NCBI GenBank assembly: GCA_018697295.1
Contig: JABHTJ010000005.1
Location: forward strand, 1 to 54,115
Length of the DNA stretch: 54,115 bases
Source of the DNA: an archaeon
GTDB lineage: Archaea > Nanobdellota > Nanobdellia > Pacearchaeales > GW2011-AR1
Direction: 5' to 3'
The notes under the pieces are model-generated. The model did not search any database. It was not told where the DNA came from and was given only the letters and a program-made list of their open reading frames with translations. A program made the translations under genes and the position numbers. Below are positions 31,297 through 43,732 of this stretch, one piece after another; within the stretch, counting starts at the first letter, position 1; every line of letters begins with the position of its first letter.

Positions 31297-31941
31297 ATGA
31301 AGAGGGGTTTTGAGAATATGGATGTGTCAAAGAGAGGCCAGGTTTTTTTATTTGCTGCAGTTGTTATTTCTGCTATTTTGCTTAGTGTTGGGACTGTCTC
31401 GAATATTGCACTTGTTAGTGAAGAACCACAAAATTTAGAGAAATTGACGATGGAAGTGAAACGGGAAACAGGAAAAGTTATTGATTATGAAATTCGTGAT
31501 GGGTGGTCTGAAGATTATTCTAAAATCGAAGATTTTGTTGTGAATTTTTCAAAAGATCTTCGTGATCAGGACCCTAATTTGAATTTTATGTTTATTTATG
31601 GAAATAGTTCAGAAGTATTTCTCAAAAACTATGGCTCGAAGGCTGCCCAAATTTGCATTAATGACAATCCTGGCAATTGCGAAGATATTCTTGGAGCATC
31701 CCAATTATTTGAGAGTAGAATTTATCATGGAGGGGGTTTTACGGATGTTACTTTTGCTAATGATGATGTAAATTTGTTGTGGGAAGCCTCATTTAATGAG
31801 ATAGATCTTGGTGATTCTCTTGACAAAATCAATATTACTATTTTTGACGAAAACCACATATTTAATTTTGGGGATTCTCGTCAAGTAATCTTTGTTGTAC
31901 AAAAGGAGGTAGGAGATGAAAATTTTGTTTCAGTTATGTAA
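31297..31941 (+). CDS. Pilin-like membrane-anchored protein
   Basis: 214 residues. The head VSKRGQVFLFAAVVISAILL shows a class III signal: KRG, then Q and a hydrophobic helix, as in archaeal pilins and archaellins. The outer part is acidic, with C-I-N-D-N-P-G-N-C (about 128-136) able to form a disulfide. An AATTTATAAGTG box near 31266-31277 lies about 25 bases before ATG 31297. It overlaps the next pilin-like gene (31916) by 26 bases, so they are co-transcribed. Confidence 0.65.
   Translation: MKRGFENMDVSKRGQVFLFAAVVISAILLSVGTVSNIALVSEEPQNLEKLTMEVKRETGKVIDYEIRDGWSEDYSKIEDFVVNFSKDLRDQDPNLNFMFIYGNSSEVFLKNYGSKAAQICINDNPGNCEDILGASQLFESRIYHGGGFTDVTFANDDVNLLWEASFNEIDLGDSLDKINITIFDENHIFNFGDSRQVIFVVQKEVGDENFVSVM
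31903..31910 (+). promoter_or_regulatory. Shine-Dalgarno inside the end of the upstream pilin-like gene
   Basis: AAGGAGGT five bases before ATG 31916. It lies in the coding sequence of the upstream gene and fixes the start of the overlapping downstream gene. Confidence 0.7.
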
Positions 31942-32419
31942 GAAGATGAAAAAGCAAGGACTTAGCAATATGGTTGCTTATGCGCTTTTGATTTCGATTA
32001 CAATTACTTTGTCTATTTTTGTGTATGGATGGCTTCGATTTTTCGTTGCTGAGCCCGATGTTACTGAATGTTCGGGGGATGTGAATGTTGTTATTCAAAA
32101 TTATAGTTGTGTTACTGGCCTTGCGACAGGACACTTAGATATTACTCTTAAGAATAAAGGACTCTTTAATGTTGACGGATTTATTGTTCGCGTCCATGAT
32201 AGGCCTGACGCTGACTTTGGATTTTATACCTTGGACGATACCGGAGTTCCACTTGTTCCAGGAGAAGAACACACTATTAGTTTTACTAATGTTGATTTAG
32301 CAGCAGAAGGTATTGATGACGACATTACACTTTTAGAAGTTCAGCCGTTCCTTTTGAATGGAGATTCGATTAGTTGTAAATCGATTATTTCGCAAAAAAT
32401 TGATTGTGAAAACCCGTAA
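31916..32419 (+). CDS. Type IV pilin-like protein
   Basis: 167 residues. The head MKKQGLSNMVAYALLISITI has a class III signal (KKQG then L, S) and a hydrophobic helix (about 15-38). The rest is a beta-sandwich-like domain with Cys 50, 62 and two later Cys (SCKS, DCEN). The phrase LKNKGLFNVDGFIVRV is typical of archaeal pilin C-domains (DUF1628-like). The start is set by the Shine-Dalgarno at 31903. It overlaps the previous pilin-like gene and is followed by a hairpin terminator at 32434. Confidence 0.7.
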   Translation: MKILFQLCKKMKKQGLSNMVAYALLISITITLSIFVYGWLRFFVAEPDVTECSGDVNVVIQNYSCVTGLATGHLDITLKNKGLFNVDGFIVRVHDRPDADFGFYTLDDTGVPLVPGEEHTISFTNVDLAAEGIDDDITLLEVQPFLLNGDSISCKSIISQKIDCENP

Positions 32420-32433
32420 TTTGTTTTACTCGT

Positions 32434-32466
32434 CGATTAAAAATCTTTAATTAAGGTTTTTAATCG
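32434..32466 (+). terminator. Hairpin plus T-run after the pilin-like pair
   Basis: Ten perfect base pairs (CGATTAAAAA with TTTTTAATCG) around a 13-base loop, followed directly by long T-rich runs. It sits 14 bases after the stop of the gene ending at 32419 and before a separate promoter at about 32539. Confidence 0.7.
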
Positions 32467-32566
32467 ATTTTTTTATTTTTTTATTTGATTAATTTCTTAA
32501 AAATTGCTTTTTTAGGAGAACTCTACTTTAGAAAAACTTTATAAATTATAGTAACTCTCTTATCTC

Positions 32567-33052
32567 ATGAAAAGAGGTTTGGTTAGAAGTAGAAAAGGAT
32601 TATCGCCGATTATTGCGAGTGTTCTTTTGATTTTGTTAGTCATCGTACTTGCGATTTTAATTTTTGCGTGGGCGCGAGGTTTTATTAGTGAACAGGTCGA
32701 AAAGTTTGGACAACCAATTGATTCTTATTGTGAAGCCGTTAATTTTGAAGCCGAAATAATTGGTCCACTTGAAAATGCGGTTCTTGAAGTTGTTAACAGG
32801 GGAGATATTGATATTTTTAGACTCAGTATTTTAATGACAAAAGGTGGAAATTCTATTATGAGAGATTTTGATTATCCTATTGCTAAAGGTGATTCGATTA
32901 GTGTTAATTGGGTATTCTTACTAGATGAATTAGATCCAAGCAGTACCCCTGAAAAAATTGAATTATTCCCTGTTCTCGTCGGACAAGTTAAAGGACAAGA
33001 ATCTACAAAGCCATTTACTTGTCTTGATAATGGAAAAGAAATAGCATTTTGA
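32567..33052 (+). CDS. Type IV pilin / archaellin-like protein
   Basis: 161 residues. The N-terminus RSRKGLSPIIASVLLILLVI is the classical archaeal prepilin motif (RKG, L-S-P-I-I-A-x-V-L-L). A beta-rich C-domain follows, with Cys 52 and Cys 152 and VLEVVNRGDIDIFRLSILM, as in the archaeal Pilin_N/DUF1628 group. After processing and assembly it would be part of a surface fibre or pseudopilus. It has its own CTTTATAAATT box about 25 bases before ATG and lies after the terminator of the other pilin-like pair. Confidence 0.8.
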   Translation: MKRGLVRSRKGLSPIIASVLLILLVIVLAILIFAWARGFISEQVEKFGQPIDSYCEAVNFEAEIIGPLENAVLEVVNRGDIDIFRLSILMTKGGNSIMRDFDYPIAKGDSISVNWVFLLDELDPSSTPEKIELFPVLVGQVKGQESTKPFTCLDNGKEIAF

Positions 33053-35570: not shown

Positions 35571-36509
35571 TTAATGAACTTTCTTTCCCCTTAAAAAATC
35601 ATTAAATTTCTTTGCATCAGTTGCTTCTTTCATCATTTCTTCTTCAATAGTACCTGGAGCTTTATCTTTAACTACTAAATCATACACTGCACCCCTAACA
35701 AAATCTATTTCTAAAAACCCTTGGGTAAGTCCTCTCACAACTTCTTGAGCCTGATGACATTGAGCTTCTCGAGGGATAGCTATAGTGCCATCATTAGCCA
35801 TATAGATTATTGAAGGAGTTCCACCCACGCCGTTATTAATATCTGAAGATCCGTTTGTTGCTTCAATTGCGGCAACAATTCCTTCATCATCAGGAATTGT
35901 TCTTCGTTCTTCTCTAGTCATCCCTGAAACAAACCCCGAAAGAACCTCATTAGATTTATCATAGCCACTCCCGAGAGTTGCATTAGGAGCATAAAACTGT
36001 GTACGATTTCCCCCATTAGTAATACCATAAATTTCGAATCTATCATTTTCAATCCCTCCAAGCAAGATCCCTAATCCTTTAGACCCCTCGAGACCTCCAA
36101 GAATTTGTTTAGAGGTATTAATTGAATCGGCACTTAATGATCTTCCACTTTGAAGCGTACCAGCACTTAGATCTTCTAATCCAAACCCCATACGATTTCT
36201 CAAAATTGCATCTTTTTCTCCAACCATATATCTCGTAATAACATCGCGAACGGCATCTGCAGCACTGCGAAGTTGATTCAAAGATTCACTAATTCCCTTT
36301 TGTTCAAATTCCCTTTGAGAATCGTGATAAAGAGTTGTAAATAATTCATTAACAGGTCCTGTTCCGCCATAAATTGCTTTTCTCTCACCACCTAAACCAA
36401 TTGTAAGAAGTTTATCAAAAGAATTAGTATGCCTCTCCGCTGTAGAACCTTGTTCATCCGCAACAGCAACACCACCGTCTTTCAAGCGTAGATAATTTAA
36501 TACAGTCAT
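35571..36509 (-). CDS. Proteasome-like Ntn hydrolase, divergent
   Basis: 312 residues. The opening M-T-V-L-N-Y-L-R-L-K-D-G-G-V-A-V-A-D-E follows proteasomal beta and HslV starts. After Met removal Thr2 becomes the N-terminal nucleophile, Asp18 falls at position 17 and Lys33 close to the catalytic Lys33. IGLGG, IYGGTGPV, ILLGGIENDRFEIYGI, the ATLGSGYDKSNEVLSGF strand (177-193) and SSDINNGVGGTPSIIYM (221-237) match the order of proteasome motifs, including LGSG and the Ser/Asp-GG site. Residues 55-135 are a long insertion. The absence of a propeptide resembles HslV and Anbu. A TTTAAATATG promoter box lies about 27 bases upstream of the start. Target and partner ATPase are unknown; the nearby CDC48 proteins are candidates. 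Confidence 0.7.
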   Translation of the reverse strand: MTVLNYLRLKDGGVAVADEQGSTAERHTNSFDKLLTIGLGGERKAIYGGTGPVNELFTTLYHDSQREFEQKGISESLNQLRSAADAVRDVITRYMVGEKDAILRNRMGFGLEDLSAGTLQSGRSLSADSINTSKQILGGLEGSKGLGILLGGIENDRFEIYGITNGGNRTQFYAPNATLGSGYDKSNEVLSGFVSGMTREERRTIPDDEGIVAAIEATNGSSDINNGVGGTPSIIYMANDGTIAIPREAQCHQAQEVVRGLTQGFLEIDFVRGAVYDLVVKDKAPGTIEEEMMKEATDAKKFNDFLRGKKVH

Positions 36510-36590
36510 AAAAAATAGGCATTAAAGACATATTTAAACTTTTCTATTTGTTACCATTTTTTAATGATAATAAAATTAATATTGCTTGAA

Positions 36591-36665
36591 TGGCCCTGAG
36601 GGGATTTGAACCCCCGACACCTAGATTAAGAGTCTAGTGCTCTGACCAGGCTGAGCTACAGAGCC
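36591..36665 (-). tRNA. tRNA-Lys (CTT)
   Basis: 75-base cloverleaf on the minus strand. Acceptor GGCTCTG pairs with CAGGGCC (one G-U). The anticodon stem CTAGA/TCTAG encloses CTCTTAA, giving CTT for the Lys codon AAG. The T arm CGGGGG-TTCAAAT-CCCCT is complete; discriminator A; no CCA, no intron. Confidence 0.95.
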
Positions 36666-36717
36666 ATTATAAATTATCAATAGAAATTTTCATTAAAAAC
36701 TTAACTGTTTGTAAAAA

Positions 36718-38702: not shown

Positions 38703-41018
38703 ATGGCTGAAAAAATAAGCAAATCTGTTAAACTTCGAGTAGTTGAAGCGCTTGCCGACGACGCGTATAAAGGAATTGTTCGAATTGATCCGCGACTTAT
38801 GAAAGATCTTGGACTCGAGCGAGGAGATATTGTTCAGTTGAAGGGAGACCGCGAAACCTATTCTATAGTGGATAGAGCTTATCCAGCAGATTTGGGAGAG
38901 AAAATTATTCGGATGGATGGAATTGCACGAAAAAATGCGAAGGTTGGGATTGAAGATTTTATTGAACTTCGAAAAGCAGAAGTTGTTCCTGCTAAGAAAA
39001 TTGTGATTGCTCCTGCTCAGCAAGGAATGGTTGTTCAAGCAAATAGCGATAATTTTGTGAAAGGACTTTTAGGAAAACCTATTCGAAAAGGCGACATCAT
39101 TGTTATGGGTGGAACACAGAGACGAAAAGATATTATGAGTGAAGGAATCGGAGATTTATTTGGTGGCGACATGAGCGAAATTTTTAATCAAATGGGCTTT
39201 GGTGGTGCTCCAGGAGGACTTACTCAAATTAGATTTGTTGTTGTTTCGACAAATCCAAAACAGCCGGTGAAAATTACTGAATCCACACAAATAACTCTTA
39301 GCTCTAAAACTGTGGAAATTTCAGATGAACAAATTCCACAAATTACCTATGAGGACATTGGAGGATTAACTACTGAAGTTAAGAAAGTTCGTGAGATGGT
39401 TGAATTGCCATTGAAACGTCCAGAGATTTTTTCTCGATTAGGAATTGAACCTCCAAAAGGTGTATTGTTATATGGGCCTCCAGGGACGGGGAAAACGTTA
39501 CTTGCTAAAGCTATTGCAAATGAGTCTGAAGCGCATTTTATTCTTCTGAATGGTCCAGAAATTATGTCGAAATTTTATGGGGAAAGTGAGAAAAAGATTA
39601 GGGAAATTTTTAGTGATGCAGAAAAAAATGCCCCTTCAATTATTTTTATTGATGAAATAGATTCTCTTGCTCCAAAGAGAGAAGATGCTGGTGGCGAGGT
39701 TGAGAGGCGGGTTGTTTCACAACTTTTGACTATGATGGATGGACTGAATACACGAGGAAAAGTTGTTGTTATAGGGGCTACGAATAGACCGAACTCTATT
39801 GATCCTGCACTTCGTCGTCCAGGGAGGTTTGACCGAGAAGTAGAAATTTCAGTTCCAGATAAAGATGGACGACTTTCAATTTTTAAAATTCATACGCGAG
39901 GAATGCCACTTACAGAAGATGTTGATTTGAAAGAAATGGCGAGAAAAACTCACGGATTTGTCGGGGCAGACATTAGTTCGCTTGCAAAAGAAGCTGCAAT
40001 GAATGTTCTTCGACGAAACATCCATAAGTTTAATTTAGAAGAAGACCAAGAAATTCCTCAAGAAATTTTAGATGAACTAAGAGTTTCTAAAATAGATTTT
40101 GATGAGGCTTTGAAAACGGTTAGACCTTCAGCCATGCGAGAAGTTTTGGTTGAGACCCCGAATACTAGATGGGGCGATATCGGGGGGGTCGAAGGTGTCA
40201 AGAGAGATTTGCGAGAAGCCGTCGAATGGCCCTTAAAACATCCGGAATCATTTACTCGAATGGGAATTTCTCCTCCGAAAGGCGTTTTATTGTATGGGCC
40301 TCCAGGGACGGGGAAAACTCTTTTAGCTAAAGCTGTTGCGAATGAATCTGAAGCGAATTTTATTCAAGTAAAAGGTCCAAGTTTATTATCTATGTGGGTT
40401 GGAAAATCTGAAGAAGGAGTTAGGAAAATTTTTGAAAGAGCTAGACAAGTTTCTCCTTGTGTTATTTTCTTCGATGAAATCGATTCTCTAGCAGGAAAGC
40501 GAGGAAATCAGCATACTGGAGGTGGATCAAAAGTTACAGAGAACGTACTTAATCAAATGCTTTCTGAAATGGATGGTATTGAGGATTTGCATAATGTGAT
40601 TGTTATTGGTGCGACGAACAGGCCAGATATGTTAGACCCTGCATTAATGAGACCTGGAAGATTCGATAGAATTGTCTATGTTCCAGTTCCAAAATCCGAA
40701 GGGAGATTGAAGATTTTAGAAGTCCATACAAAAGATATGCCCTTGGAGAATTCTGTTGATTTGAAAAACTTTGCTGAAAAGACTGAAGGATATACTGGAG
40801 CCGATTTAGAATCTCTTGCTCGTGAAGCTGCAATGCTTGCCCTTAGAGAAGACATTACTACAAAAATAGTTACCAACAAGCATTTTGAAGAAGCTATGGA
40901 GAAGGTTTTGCCCTCGGTATCAAAACACGATCATGAACTGTATAAACAAGTTGAACAAAAATATTTGAAGAGTGCAAGAGCAGGCCTTGTGAATAATGGC
41001 GCGATTTATGCAAGCTAA
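38703..41018 (+). CDS. CDC48/VAT-type AAA ATPase, copy A
   Basis: 771 residues. The N-domain (about 1-190, double-psi barrel) carries an insertion [19 protein letters not shown] (about 150-168). D1 Walker A is GPPGTGKT (257-264) with Walker [11 protein letters not shown]2 Walker A is GPPGTGKT (531-538) with VIFFDEIDS. Each ring has Arg-finger motifs ([17 protein letters not shown] and [17 protein letters not shown]). This unfoldase feeds substrates to proteases or disassembles complexes. The C-terminus ends I-Y-A-S, close to but not exactly the HbYX proteasome-docking tail. It is downstream of the AbrB gene, under the palindromic operator. Confidence 0.97.
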
Positions 41019-41036
41019 TTTTTGTTAATCGATAAT

Positions 41037-41047
41037 TTTATAAATAG
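41037..41047 (+). promoter_or_regulatory. TATA box for hsp20
   Basis: TTTATAAATAG, directly before the operator at 41050. It predicts a transcript start near 41067 and a 5' UTR of roughly 43 bases without a Shine-Dalgarno. Confidence 0.6.
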
Positions 41048-41049
41048 AA

Positions 41050-41068
41050 GTATACACAGCTTGTATAC
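41050..41068 (+). promoter_or_regulatory. Palindromic operator upstream of the Hsp20-CDC48 operon
   Basis: GTATACA-CAGCT-TGTATAC: perfect seven-base arms with a five-base spacer. It lies just after the TATA box, the same place as the related element at 38334. Shared sequence and shared geometry point to one regulator for both operons. Confidence 0.7.
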
Positions 41069-41109
41069 ACAAGATTTGTGAAATAAAATAAATTATAATA
41101 AAAAATAAA

Positions 41110-41484
41110 ATGAACCCTTTTGGAGATGACCCGTTTGAAAGACTAGCACGAGAATTCTTTGGTGGAAACAATAGTTCAGATGATGAATTTATACAAACTG
41201 AACAGGAAGTAAAATCTCTTGATTTAATTGAAGGAAAAGATCATGTTTATTTAATATTTGAATTTCCTGGATTTAAGGAATCTGAGGTTAATGTTGAAAT
41301 TTCTCGTGACGAGATTATTATTGTTACGTCGAGAAAAGGACTTGAAGGAGAAGAAGAATATATTTCTCAAAAACTTGCTGCGACAAACCCAATTCGTAAA
41401 AAACTTCCAAGCATAATCAAAACTAAAAATTATTCTAAGACATTTCGAAACGGTGTTTTAGAAATTGTTTTCGATAAAAAATAA
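41110..41484 (+). CDS. hsp20: Small heat-shock protein, Hsp20/alpha-crystallin
   Basis: 124 residues. An N-terminal arm (1-30, DPFERLAREFFGG) precedes an alpha-crystallin domain (about 35-120) with YLIFEFPGFKESEVNVEISRDEIIIV and the closing FRNGVLEIVF, the G-x-L strand. No C-terminal I-x-I extension is visible after F-D-K-K. It holds unfolded proteins in a soluble state. The gene is one base ahead of CDC48 copy B and shares its promoter, which carries the palindromic operator. Confidence 0.93.
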   Translation: MNPFGDDPFERLAREFFGGNNSSDDEFIQTEQEVKSLDLIEGKDHVYLIFEFPGFKESEVNVEISRDEIIIVTSRKGLEGEEEYISQKLAATNPIRKKLPSIIKTKNYSKTFRNGVLEIVFDKK

Positions 41485-41485
41485 A

Positions 41486-43732
41486 ATGGCAGCTGAAAAA
41501 AAGAAACCGCAGGGAATTGAAGTTAAGGTAGCTGAAAGTTTGCAAGAAGACATTAATGAGGGAATTGTTAGAGTTTCTTCGGAAGTAATGAATGAACTAA
41601 AAATTGTTAGTGGAGATTATGTTGAAATTTCTGGAAAGAATTCACTTGTCTTGAAGGCTATGCGCTCTCTTGAATCTGAAATTTATTCTATTCGTCTTGA
41701 CGGGACTACTAGGTCTGATTTAACAACATCTCTTGGAGAAAAAGTTTTTATTTCTAAGGCGGAAGGATTGAAGGAAGCAAAATCGATTACACTTTCTCCC
41801 TTGCAAGAACTTCGATTAAGTAAGGAATCGAATGCTTATTTTCATAGCAAACTTCTTTCACATCCATTAAAACAAAAGCAGACGCTTGTGATTATTGCTA
41901 GCTCTAAAAAACTTGGCTATATTGTTTCAAAGACGATGCCAAAAGGAGCAGTTTATGTTACTCCGAGCACGAAAATTGATTTAGCTGAAGAGGTATACTC
42001 TGGAGATTCTGGGAAACCTGGAATTTATTATGAAGATATTGGTGGACTTAAAGCAGAGATTGAAGGAATTCGTGAAATGGTCGAGCTTCCAATGAAGCAC
42101 CCAGAAGTTTTTGAAAAACTTGGAGTTGGTGCACCAAAAGGAGTTTTATTGACAGGGCCTCCAGGAACTGGAAAGACCTTACTTGCAAAAGCTGTTGCGA
42201 CTGAGACCGATTCAGCATTTTATTCCATTGCAGGTCCAGAAATTATGAGCAAATATTATGGAGAAAGTGAAAAACATATTCGAGAAATTTTTGAGAAGGC
42301 TGAGAAGAATTCTCCTGCGATTGTTTTTATCGACGAGATTGATTCTATTGCTCCAAAACGAGGAGACGGAACTGACCAAACCGAAAAACGAATTGTTGCA
42401 CAGCTACTTACTTTAATGGACGGGATAAAATCGCGTGGACAATTAGTTGTTATGGCTGCAACGAATAGGCCTGAAGATATTGATCCAGCACTTCGTCGCC
42501 CAGGTAGATTTGATAGAGAACTTAAGATTAATCCCCCGATGGAAGAAGGACGAAAGGAGATTTTGCAAATTCATACGCGAGGAATGCCTCTTGACTCTAA
42601 AGTTGATTTTGACGAAATTGCACGAAAGACTATTGGCTTTACTGGAGCAGACTTGGAAGTTTTGTGTAAGGAAGCTGCATTAAAATCTATTAAACCACAT
42701 TTTGAAAAGTTGAAAAATATGGATGAGAAAGTTCCTGCAGAGATTTTAGAAAGTATTCAAGTTTCAAAAGAACATTTTTTAGCGTCGCTGGCACATATTG
42801 AACCCTCTGCTATGCGAGAAGTTTTGATTAATAAGCCACATGTAAAATGGAGTGATGTTGGAGGACTTGGTGAAGCTAAGGAAAAACTTAGGGAACTTGT
42901 TGAGTTGCCATTAATTCGTCCAGACTTATTTGAAACTGCCGGAATAAAACCTTCTAAAGGAGTTTTACTAACTGGAGCTCCTGGAACTGGAAAAACATTA
43001 CTTGCGAAAGCAATTGCAACTGAATCAAATGCGAATTTTATTTCTGTTAAAGGGCCAGAGCTTGTTTCAAAGTGGGTTGGAGAATCTGAAAAACATGTTA
43101 GAGAAATTTTTAAGAAAGCGCGACAAGTTGCTCCATCAATTATTTTCTTTGATGAATTTGATAGTATTTCTAAGTCGCGAGGAAGTTCAATGAATGACTC
43201 TGGAGAAAAAATTGTTAATCAGTTACTGACAGAACTTGATGGTGTTGAAGAGCTTGAAAAAGTTGTAATTATTGCAGCGACTAATCGCCCAGAATTAATT
43301 GATCCAGCACTTATTCGACCTGGAAGAATCGATTCTATTATTGATTTGAAAATTCCGGATAAAGAAACTCGGCGAGAAATTTTTAAAGTACATACAAGAA
43401 ATATGCCTTTGGAAAAATCTGTTAATGTAGAAGATTTTGTTTCTAAGATGGATGGTTGGACTGGGGCGGAAATTGAATCTCTTGCTCGTGAGGCCGGAAT
43501 GAAAGCGATTAAGCGATTTTACAAGGCTGGTTCTAAGGATGCGATGAAGATTAGCAAAGAAGATTTTGATTTAGCTTTTGGAGAGTTAGAAAAAACTCGA
43601 AATGTTGCTCAGGGTTCGAGCGTGAGTAGTATGCCCGATATGAGTAAGCTTGCTGAAATGCAAAAAGACTTGGAGAAGAATGTTGGGGAAAAAAATCTTA
43701 TAACTTATAAGAAGAAAGTTAAGAAAAAATAA
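41486..43732 (+). CDS. CDC48/VAT-type AAA ATPase, copy B
   Basis: About 748 residues from ATG 41486; the longer frame from 41465 overlaps hsp20. The N-domain has no GF-rich insertion. D1 Walker A is GPPGTGKT (224-231) with [10 protein letters not shown]2 Walker A is GAPGTGKT (about 497-504), with Walker B reading IIFFDEFDS where DEIDS is usual. D2 Arg-finger region [17 protein letters not shown] is intact. The C-terminal tail is Lys-rich (YKKKVKKK) and has no HbYX. It is co-transcribed with hsp20, one base apart. It is a diverged paralogue of copy A. Confidence 0.97.

Follow-up and report, generated by a model that had tools for sequence, protein, structure and literature searches.

The gene at positions 35571..36509 (minus strand) of the window, by which we mean the whole stretch of 54,115 nucleotides analysed here, raises the question of what kind of proteasome-like protein it encodes and how this protein relates to the 20S proteasome and its known homologues. 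The open reading frame, its translation and its homologues define a product of 312 residues (P0001) that starts at an ATG and has the N-terminus MTVLNYLRLKDGGVAVADEQ, in which Met is followed by Thr. A sequence-only reading had described it as a divergent proteasome-like Ntn hydrolase without a propeptide; the translation places Thr2, Asp18, Lys33 and the LGSG motif (residues 179-182) where that reading had them, in proteasome order. Its length is likewise confirmed, and so is the missing propeptide: the reading frame is closed by a stop four codons ahead of the ATG with no alternative start between the two, and P0001 therefore cannot encode one. The upstream sequences make a propeptide impossible in several other family genes as well. 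The absence had been regarded as remarkable, but it is usual outside beta subunits and HslV; Fuchs et al. 2021 (PMC8665760) describe propeptides for most beta and HslV subunits and for none of the other homologues of the proteasome-like group. A TATA-like box, TTTAAATA, is read at 36531..36538 (minus strand), -29 to -22 relative to the ATG; it is a putative promoter element, and its spacing fits a leaderless transcript beginning at the P0001 ATG. Directly upstream of the gene, and outside the system, ARAGORN places a tRNA-Lys(CTT) (36590..36666, minus strand). Insertion linked to this tRNA was considered and rejected, as tRNA-Lys is absent beside the gene at the other loci tested, bar two distant tRNAs in L042.

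A scan of genome contigs with the single P0001 sequence retrieved no relatives; the family search began from one relative of 36% identity in the same genus and continued with profiles. In overlapping draws, profile searches located the family in 15 genomes among approximately 1,000 DPANN genomes sampled, including four member genomes among the 181 searched in the taxonomic family of the window, six others among 378 at the class level, one further genome in a phylum draw, and additional ones from an order-level draw centred on G472; a Woesearchaeota genome among these last is the same as one from the pattern scan. Carriers recognised in genome contigs with a four-sequence profile are Candidatus Pacearchaeota ARS1126 and ARS103, a Woesearchaeota MAG (Bin_187) and a Nanoarchaeota MAG (B62T1B5). 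The family is rare and patchy in DPANN. Every member seen is from DPANN, with two pattern-based scans of genome contigs covering the ground beyond its own phylum. A viral or plasmid origin was rejected on the grounds that neither P0001 nor A2 has relatives in viral contigs and that the L049 homologue has none in plasmids or phages. Two copies look interrupted, one by an in-frame TAA (L053, 223 onward, in G624) and one as a 68-residue fragment (L060, 1501-1707, in G516), apparently through sequence error or gene decay.

Conservation was assessed in 14 intact homologues with 21-35% identity to P0001, all of which begin with Met-Thr. The residues T2, D18, K33, L103, G180, G182, V228, G229, G230, I234 and L306 are invariant in all 14. 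They include Thr2 (mature Thr1; 36504..36506, minus strand, as are the other features of P0001 given below), the predicted N-terminal nucleophile, together with Asp18, corresponding to proteasome Asp17 (36456..36458), and Lys33, the counterpart of proteasome Lys33 (36411..36413). A lack of conservation at these three positions among homologues had been named in advance as evidence against the sequence-only reading, and it is not seen. Because these and other residues are invariant across the homologues, the motif pattern is more than chance. The GSG motif (residues 180-182; 35964..35972) falls in the proteasome Ser129 region, with S181 kept in 12 of the 14. Further downstream, N-x-G-V-G-G (residues 225-230; 35820..35837), in which N225 and G227 are each found in 13 of 14 sequences, occupies the place of the proteasome motif D-x-x-S-G-x-G. 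In the proteasome, Asp166 and Ser169 are placed near the Thr1 amine. The counterpart of the former in P0001, D223, is D, K, N, R, L, V, E or A across the family, and N226, at the Ser169 position, is variable too. Of the Ser-Asp-..-GG site described earlier, the GG part holds in every homologue and the Ser-Asp part does not; the latter reads as a chance resemblance and not as a conserved catalytic site. Near the C-terminus lies a further motif, LRGY[KR] (residues 306-310; 35580..35594), with R307 in 13 and Y309 in 12 of the 14; P0001's own tail is LRGKK, a K standing in place of the Y.

The relationship to proteasomes emerges from profiles and not from the single P0001 sequence. P0001 on its own has no match in Pfam or NCBIfam, its best match in the PDB, proteasome beta-10, is not significant (E 0.06), and at E<=1 PF00227 matches two and TIGR03634 four of 12 family members. 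A profile of these 12 sequences, by contrast, reaches Thermoplasma proteasome beta in the PDB at E 1.6e-5, and all 60 of the 60 chains listed are proteasome subunits. HMM-HMM comparison with DPANN psmB gives a probability of 96.9% (E 1.4e-10 for one comparison), against 41.5% with psmA. An early AlphaFold2 model from four sequences was poor (pLDDT 61), and the model from 12 sequences was used instead (pLDDT 88.8, pTM 0.87); its strands and helices follow proteasome order, and its best Foldseek matches are proteasome subunits and Anbu, with a TM-score of 0.81 normalised to Thermoplasma beta. The predicted structure has the alpha-beta-beta-alpha proteasome fold of the Ntn hydrolases, and the unlike fold that would have counted against the sequence-only reading is not what the model returns.

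The model also shows how P0001 departs from a proteasome subunit. From GTG (51) to LLGG (148) it has 97 residues, compared with 56 in DPANN psmB, a net insertion of about 41. The 80-residue insertion (residues 55-135) first proposed was thus too large, since part of that stretch forms ordinary H1/H2 helices in the model. Helices are predicted at 54-71 and 79-107, and the S3-S4 gap is five residues; the insertion region would consist of an extended H2, a short helix at 111-116 and a helix at 127-143. Its bounds are residues 72-125 or approximately 92-143, as HMM-HMM alignment and secondary structure differ on which helix is H2. The latter bounds, drawn from the AlphaFold2 model, the psmB length comparison and HMM-HMM, place a helical insertion before strand S5 at 36081..36236. 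The link between H3 and H4 is about eight residues longer than in a beta subunit, and within it lies the conserved segment R-x-x-R-x-x-I-x-P-x-E-G. Beyond the final strand of the core come some 50 additional, helical residues, overlooked in the sequence-only reading, which end in the LRGY[KR] motif and account for much of the extra length of P0001; the model resolves the C-terminal region (residues 248-306; 35592..35768) into four helices, 248-262, 268-279, 285-295 and 299-306. The sites of the insertion, of the H3-H4 lengthening and of the C-terminal helices have all been linked to ring assembly (Fuchs et al. 2021, PMC8665760). Because the insertion and the C-terminal helices sit at such sites, a canonical double ring for P0001 appears doubtful on anatomical grounds.

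That the protein is neither a typical beta subunit nor HslV nor Anbu agrees with this anatomy, which sets it apart from connectase as well. HslV shares the Thr1 Ntn fold, and four of the 12 members match phrog_1040, a phage family resembling HslV; however, HslV is described as a compact subunit that has only a very short loop at the pore and HslU as its partner (Fuchs et al. 2021, PMC8665760), and judged by this published description it differs from the far longer P0001 with its 312 residues and insertion. Anbu resembles P0001 in lacking a propeptide, in having a C-terminal helical extension and in standing among the top fold matches, whereas its extension is one long H5 coiled coil in place of the several short helices predicted here; Fuchs et al. 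2021 (PMC8665760) list it as bacterial in their table.

The family profile also uncovered a second unannotated DPANN proteasome-like family (A5), which starts with MTVGIS and carries SWQERxN. It has the Met-Thr start, D18, K33, GSGxD and NxGVGG in common with the P0001 family, and differs by an IPYSxWQxRxN motif near the C-terminus and a divergent insertion. HMM-HMM comparison of the two families gives 99.1% (E 1.7e-18). On its own the sister family does not reach proteasomes in the PDB; it is placed in the proteasome-like group because of its link to the P0001 family and the shared residues. At E<=1e-30 it was found in six of 280 class-level genomes, a seventh match (G317) belonging to the P0001 family, and its loci are L056 1162-2109, L057 1501-2466, L058 1099-2058, L059 1342-2385 and L061 1273-2220, with others in L093 and L094. 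Phylogenetic analysis recovers psmB as a single clade (support 98/97) and joins the P0001 and sister families in one clade outside psmA plus psmB (100/99), with long branches flagged. Within it the P0001 family is not strictly monophyletic relative to its sister, and the same-genus copy P0002 pairs with a Woesearchaeota copy (96/86) and not with P0001, a pattern suggestive of horizontal transfer or of differential loss. Profile, fold and tree together back the view of a divergent, new branch of proteasome-like Ntn hydrolases, one published cluster, PHI, being compared by its published anatomy only.

Could P0001 nevertheless act within the proteasome system of its host? Canonical psmA and psmB lie elsewhere in the source genome, on contigs other than that of P0001, and both genes are present in 13 of the 15 member genomes, the other two (76-81% complete) having one of them. 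The expectation that genomes with the family might lack psmB is therefore not borne out, and replacement of psmB by P0001 was rejected because of this coexistence. Similarity to psmB (PF00227/TIGR03634) extends to the fold, the Thr1/Asp17/Lys33 order, the GSG motif and significant profile similarity, but P0001 has no propeptide, is about 100 residues longer, has NxGVGG for RDxxSGxG and C-terminal helices, and belongs to a separate clade, with psmB existing as a separate gene; without a Pfam or NCBIfam match, conserved Asp166/Ser169 counterparts or grouping with psmB, it departs from a canonical beta subunit. A role as an alternative beta subunit in the 20S particle of its host, or as a homo-oligomeric barrel fed by a nearby CDC48 unfoldase, would suit the fact that the nearest relatives of solved structure are beta subunits, that in one relative about 3 kb, with a gene for a KH/beta-CASP protein, separates the family gene from psmB, and that the window holds two tandem CDC48-type AAA genes with a small heat-shock (HSP20) gene between them (38703-43732), the CDC48 genes lying 2-7 kb from P0001. 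Yet among the same-genus genomes checked the second CDC48 type (63% identity) is shared with the window only by G008 and G009, and these two genomes, which have the tandem pair, gave no match for the P0001 gene, while G006 has the family gene and a single CDC48 match. The partnership with a CDC48 unfoldase put forward earlier was rejected on this pattern of presence and absence within the genus. No conserved AAA+ neighbour is seen at other family loci, and the context varies, with no conserved gene neighbourhood across the loci examined; putative neighbours named from sequence are a YchF-like GTPase, ribosomal protein L7Ae, endonuclease III, a PHP-domain protein, a TrmB-like regulator, an aminoacyl-tRNA synthetase, a tRNA-dihydrouridine synthase and AMMECR1. 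With the three departures at ring-assembly-linked sites also against it, a role as beta subunit or CDC48-fed barrel is quite improbable. Very improbable is a catalytically dead scaffold in the manner of a proteasome alpha subunit: the D166/S169 counterparts are indeed lost, but the N-terminal Met-Thr, Asp18 and Lys33 persist in every homologue at low identity, there is no alpha-type N-terminal helix, and the profile is nearer to beta than to alpha. Two further features of the surroundings may be recorded. In Pacearchaeota ARS1126, three unannotated ORFs in a row (96, 96 and 116 residues) adjoin the homologue (L039, 6942-7872). In the window, positions 31297-33052 hold a run of short proteins (214, 167 and 161 residues) with a single N-terminal hydrophobic segment, resembling secreted proteins of the archaeal pilin/flagellin type.

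Two further proteasome-like homologues are described from archaea. Connectase is archaeal, lacks a propeptide and has a specialised helical insertion in a proteasome-like fold, and it provides a precedent in the same superfamily (PMC8665760) for a transpeptidase or protein ligase in which the amine of a second protein resolves the acyl-enzyme. A single chain of about 310 residues with no propeptide and no linked ATPase would be compatible with such an activity, and the helical insertion could gate the site. However, connectase has no H1/H2 and carries a two-helix insertion between S3 and S4 (PMC8665760), whereas P0001 is predicted to have H1/H2-like helices, an insertion elsewhere and only a short S3-S4 gap; connectase is absent from the best 50 Foldseek matches of the model, no known recognition motif or substrate points to ligation, and we consider a connectase-like enzyme unlikely. 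By anatomy, the closest published cluster is PHI (Proteasome homolog with Helical Insertion), compared here by its description only: its insertion follows H1/H2, it has no propeptide and it is assigned to 'Other Archaea' (PMC8665760). The insertion predicted for P0001 falls in the same interval, between H1 and S5, with the identity of H2 ambiguous. On the other hand, PHI is reported as one of the clusters with the closest ties to proteasome subunits, while PF00227 misses 10 of the 12 P0001-family members, so that P0001 being a divergent DPANN branch of this uncharacterised cluster, and not a separate subfamily, has some plausibility but a low probability. Fuchs et al. 2021 reported 22 new proteasome-like clusters, each required to have at least 10 members (PMC8665760). 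We found no literature on a DPANN proteasome homologue, and one later review citing that study has nothing to add on such homologues. It is tentatively proposed that the two sister DPANN families, as putative N-terminal-threonine enzymes with NxGVGG and C-terminal motifs of their own, may form a new lineage outside these 22 clusters that carries out specific processing of proteins, or their ligation, with neither rings nor ATPases.

The reading we favour, and consider probable, is that P0001 belongs to a distinct proteasome-like subfamily lacking annotation and is an active Ntn hydrolase with an N-terminal threonine, which acts on a narrow range of substrates apart from the 20S pathway and assembles differently from the 28-mer. 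A Thr at position 2 permits removal of Met1 by methionine aminopeptidase. Such removal would expose Thr1, whose hydroxyl would attack a peptide (amide) bond with the assistance of Lys33 and Asp18, as in established Ntn chemistry, the Gly48-Gly51 region serving as the oxyanion hole; the resulting acyl-enzyme could be released by water, as in a protease, or by another amine, as in a connectase-like ligase. Since the Asp166/Ser169 counterparts are not conserved and an NxGVGG loop takes their place, the fine chemistry of the active site should differ. Narrow, ATPase-independent processing outside the 20S pathway is proposed because psmA and psmB are present, no ATPase is linked, and the protein has the insertion and C-terminal helices with LRGY[KR]. 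The extra helices probably reflect a more specialised job for the family.

Few proteasome-like proteins beyond the 20S and HslV have been characterised, and one that has, connectase, has become a useful protein ligase. Neither Pfam nor NCBIfam covers the P0001 family, so its genes probably carry no annotation beyond that of a hypothetical protein. Some of the smallest archaeal genomes retain the family alongside a normal proteasome; its active-site loop is altered, its C-terminal tail is conserved, and it offers a concrete target for the study of further activities of the proteasome fold and of its early evolution.
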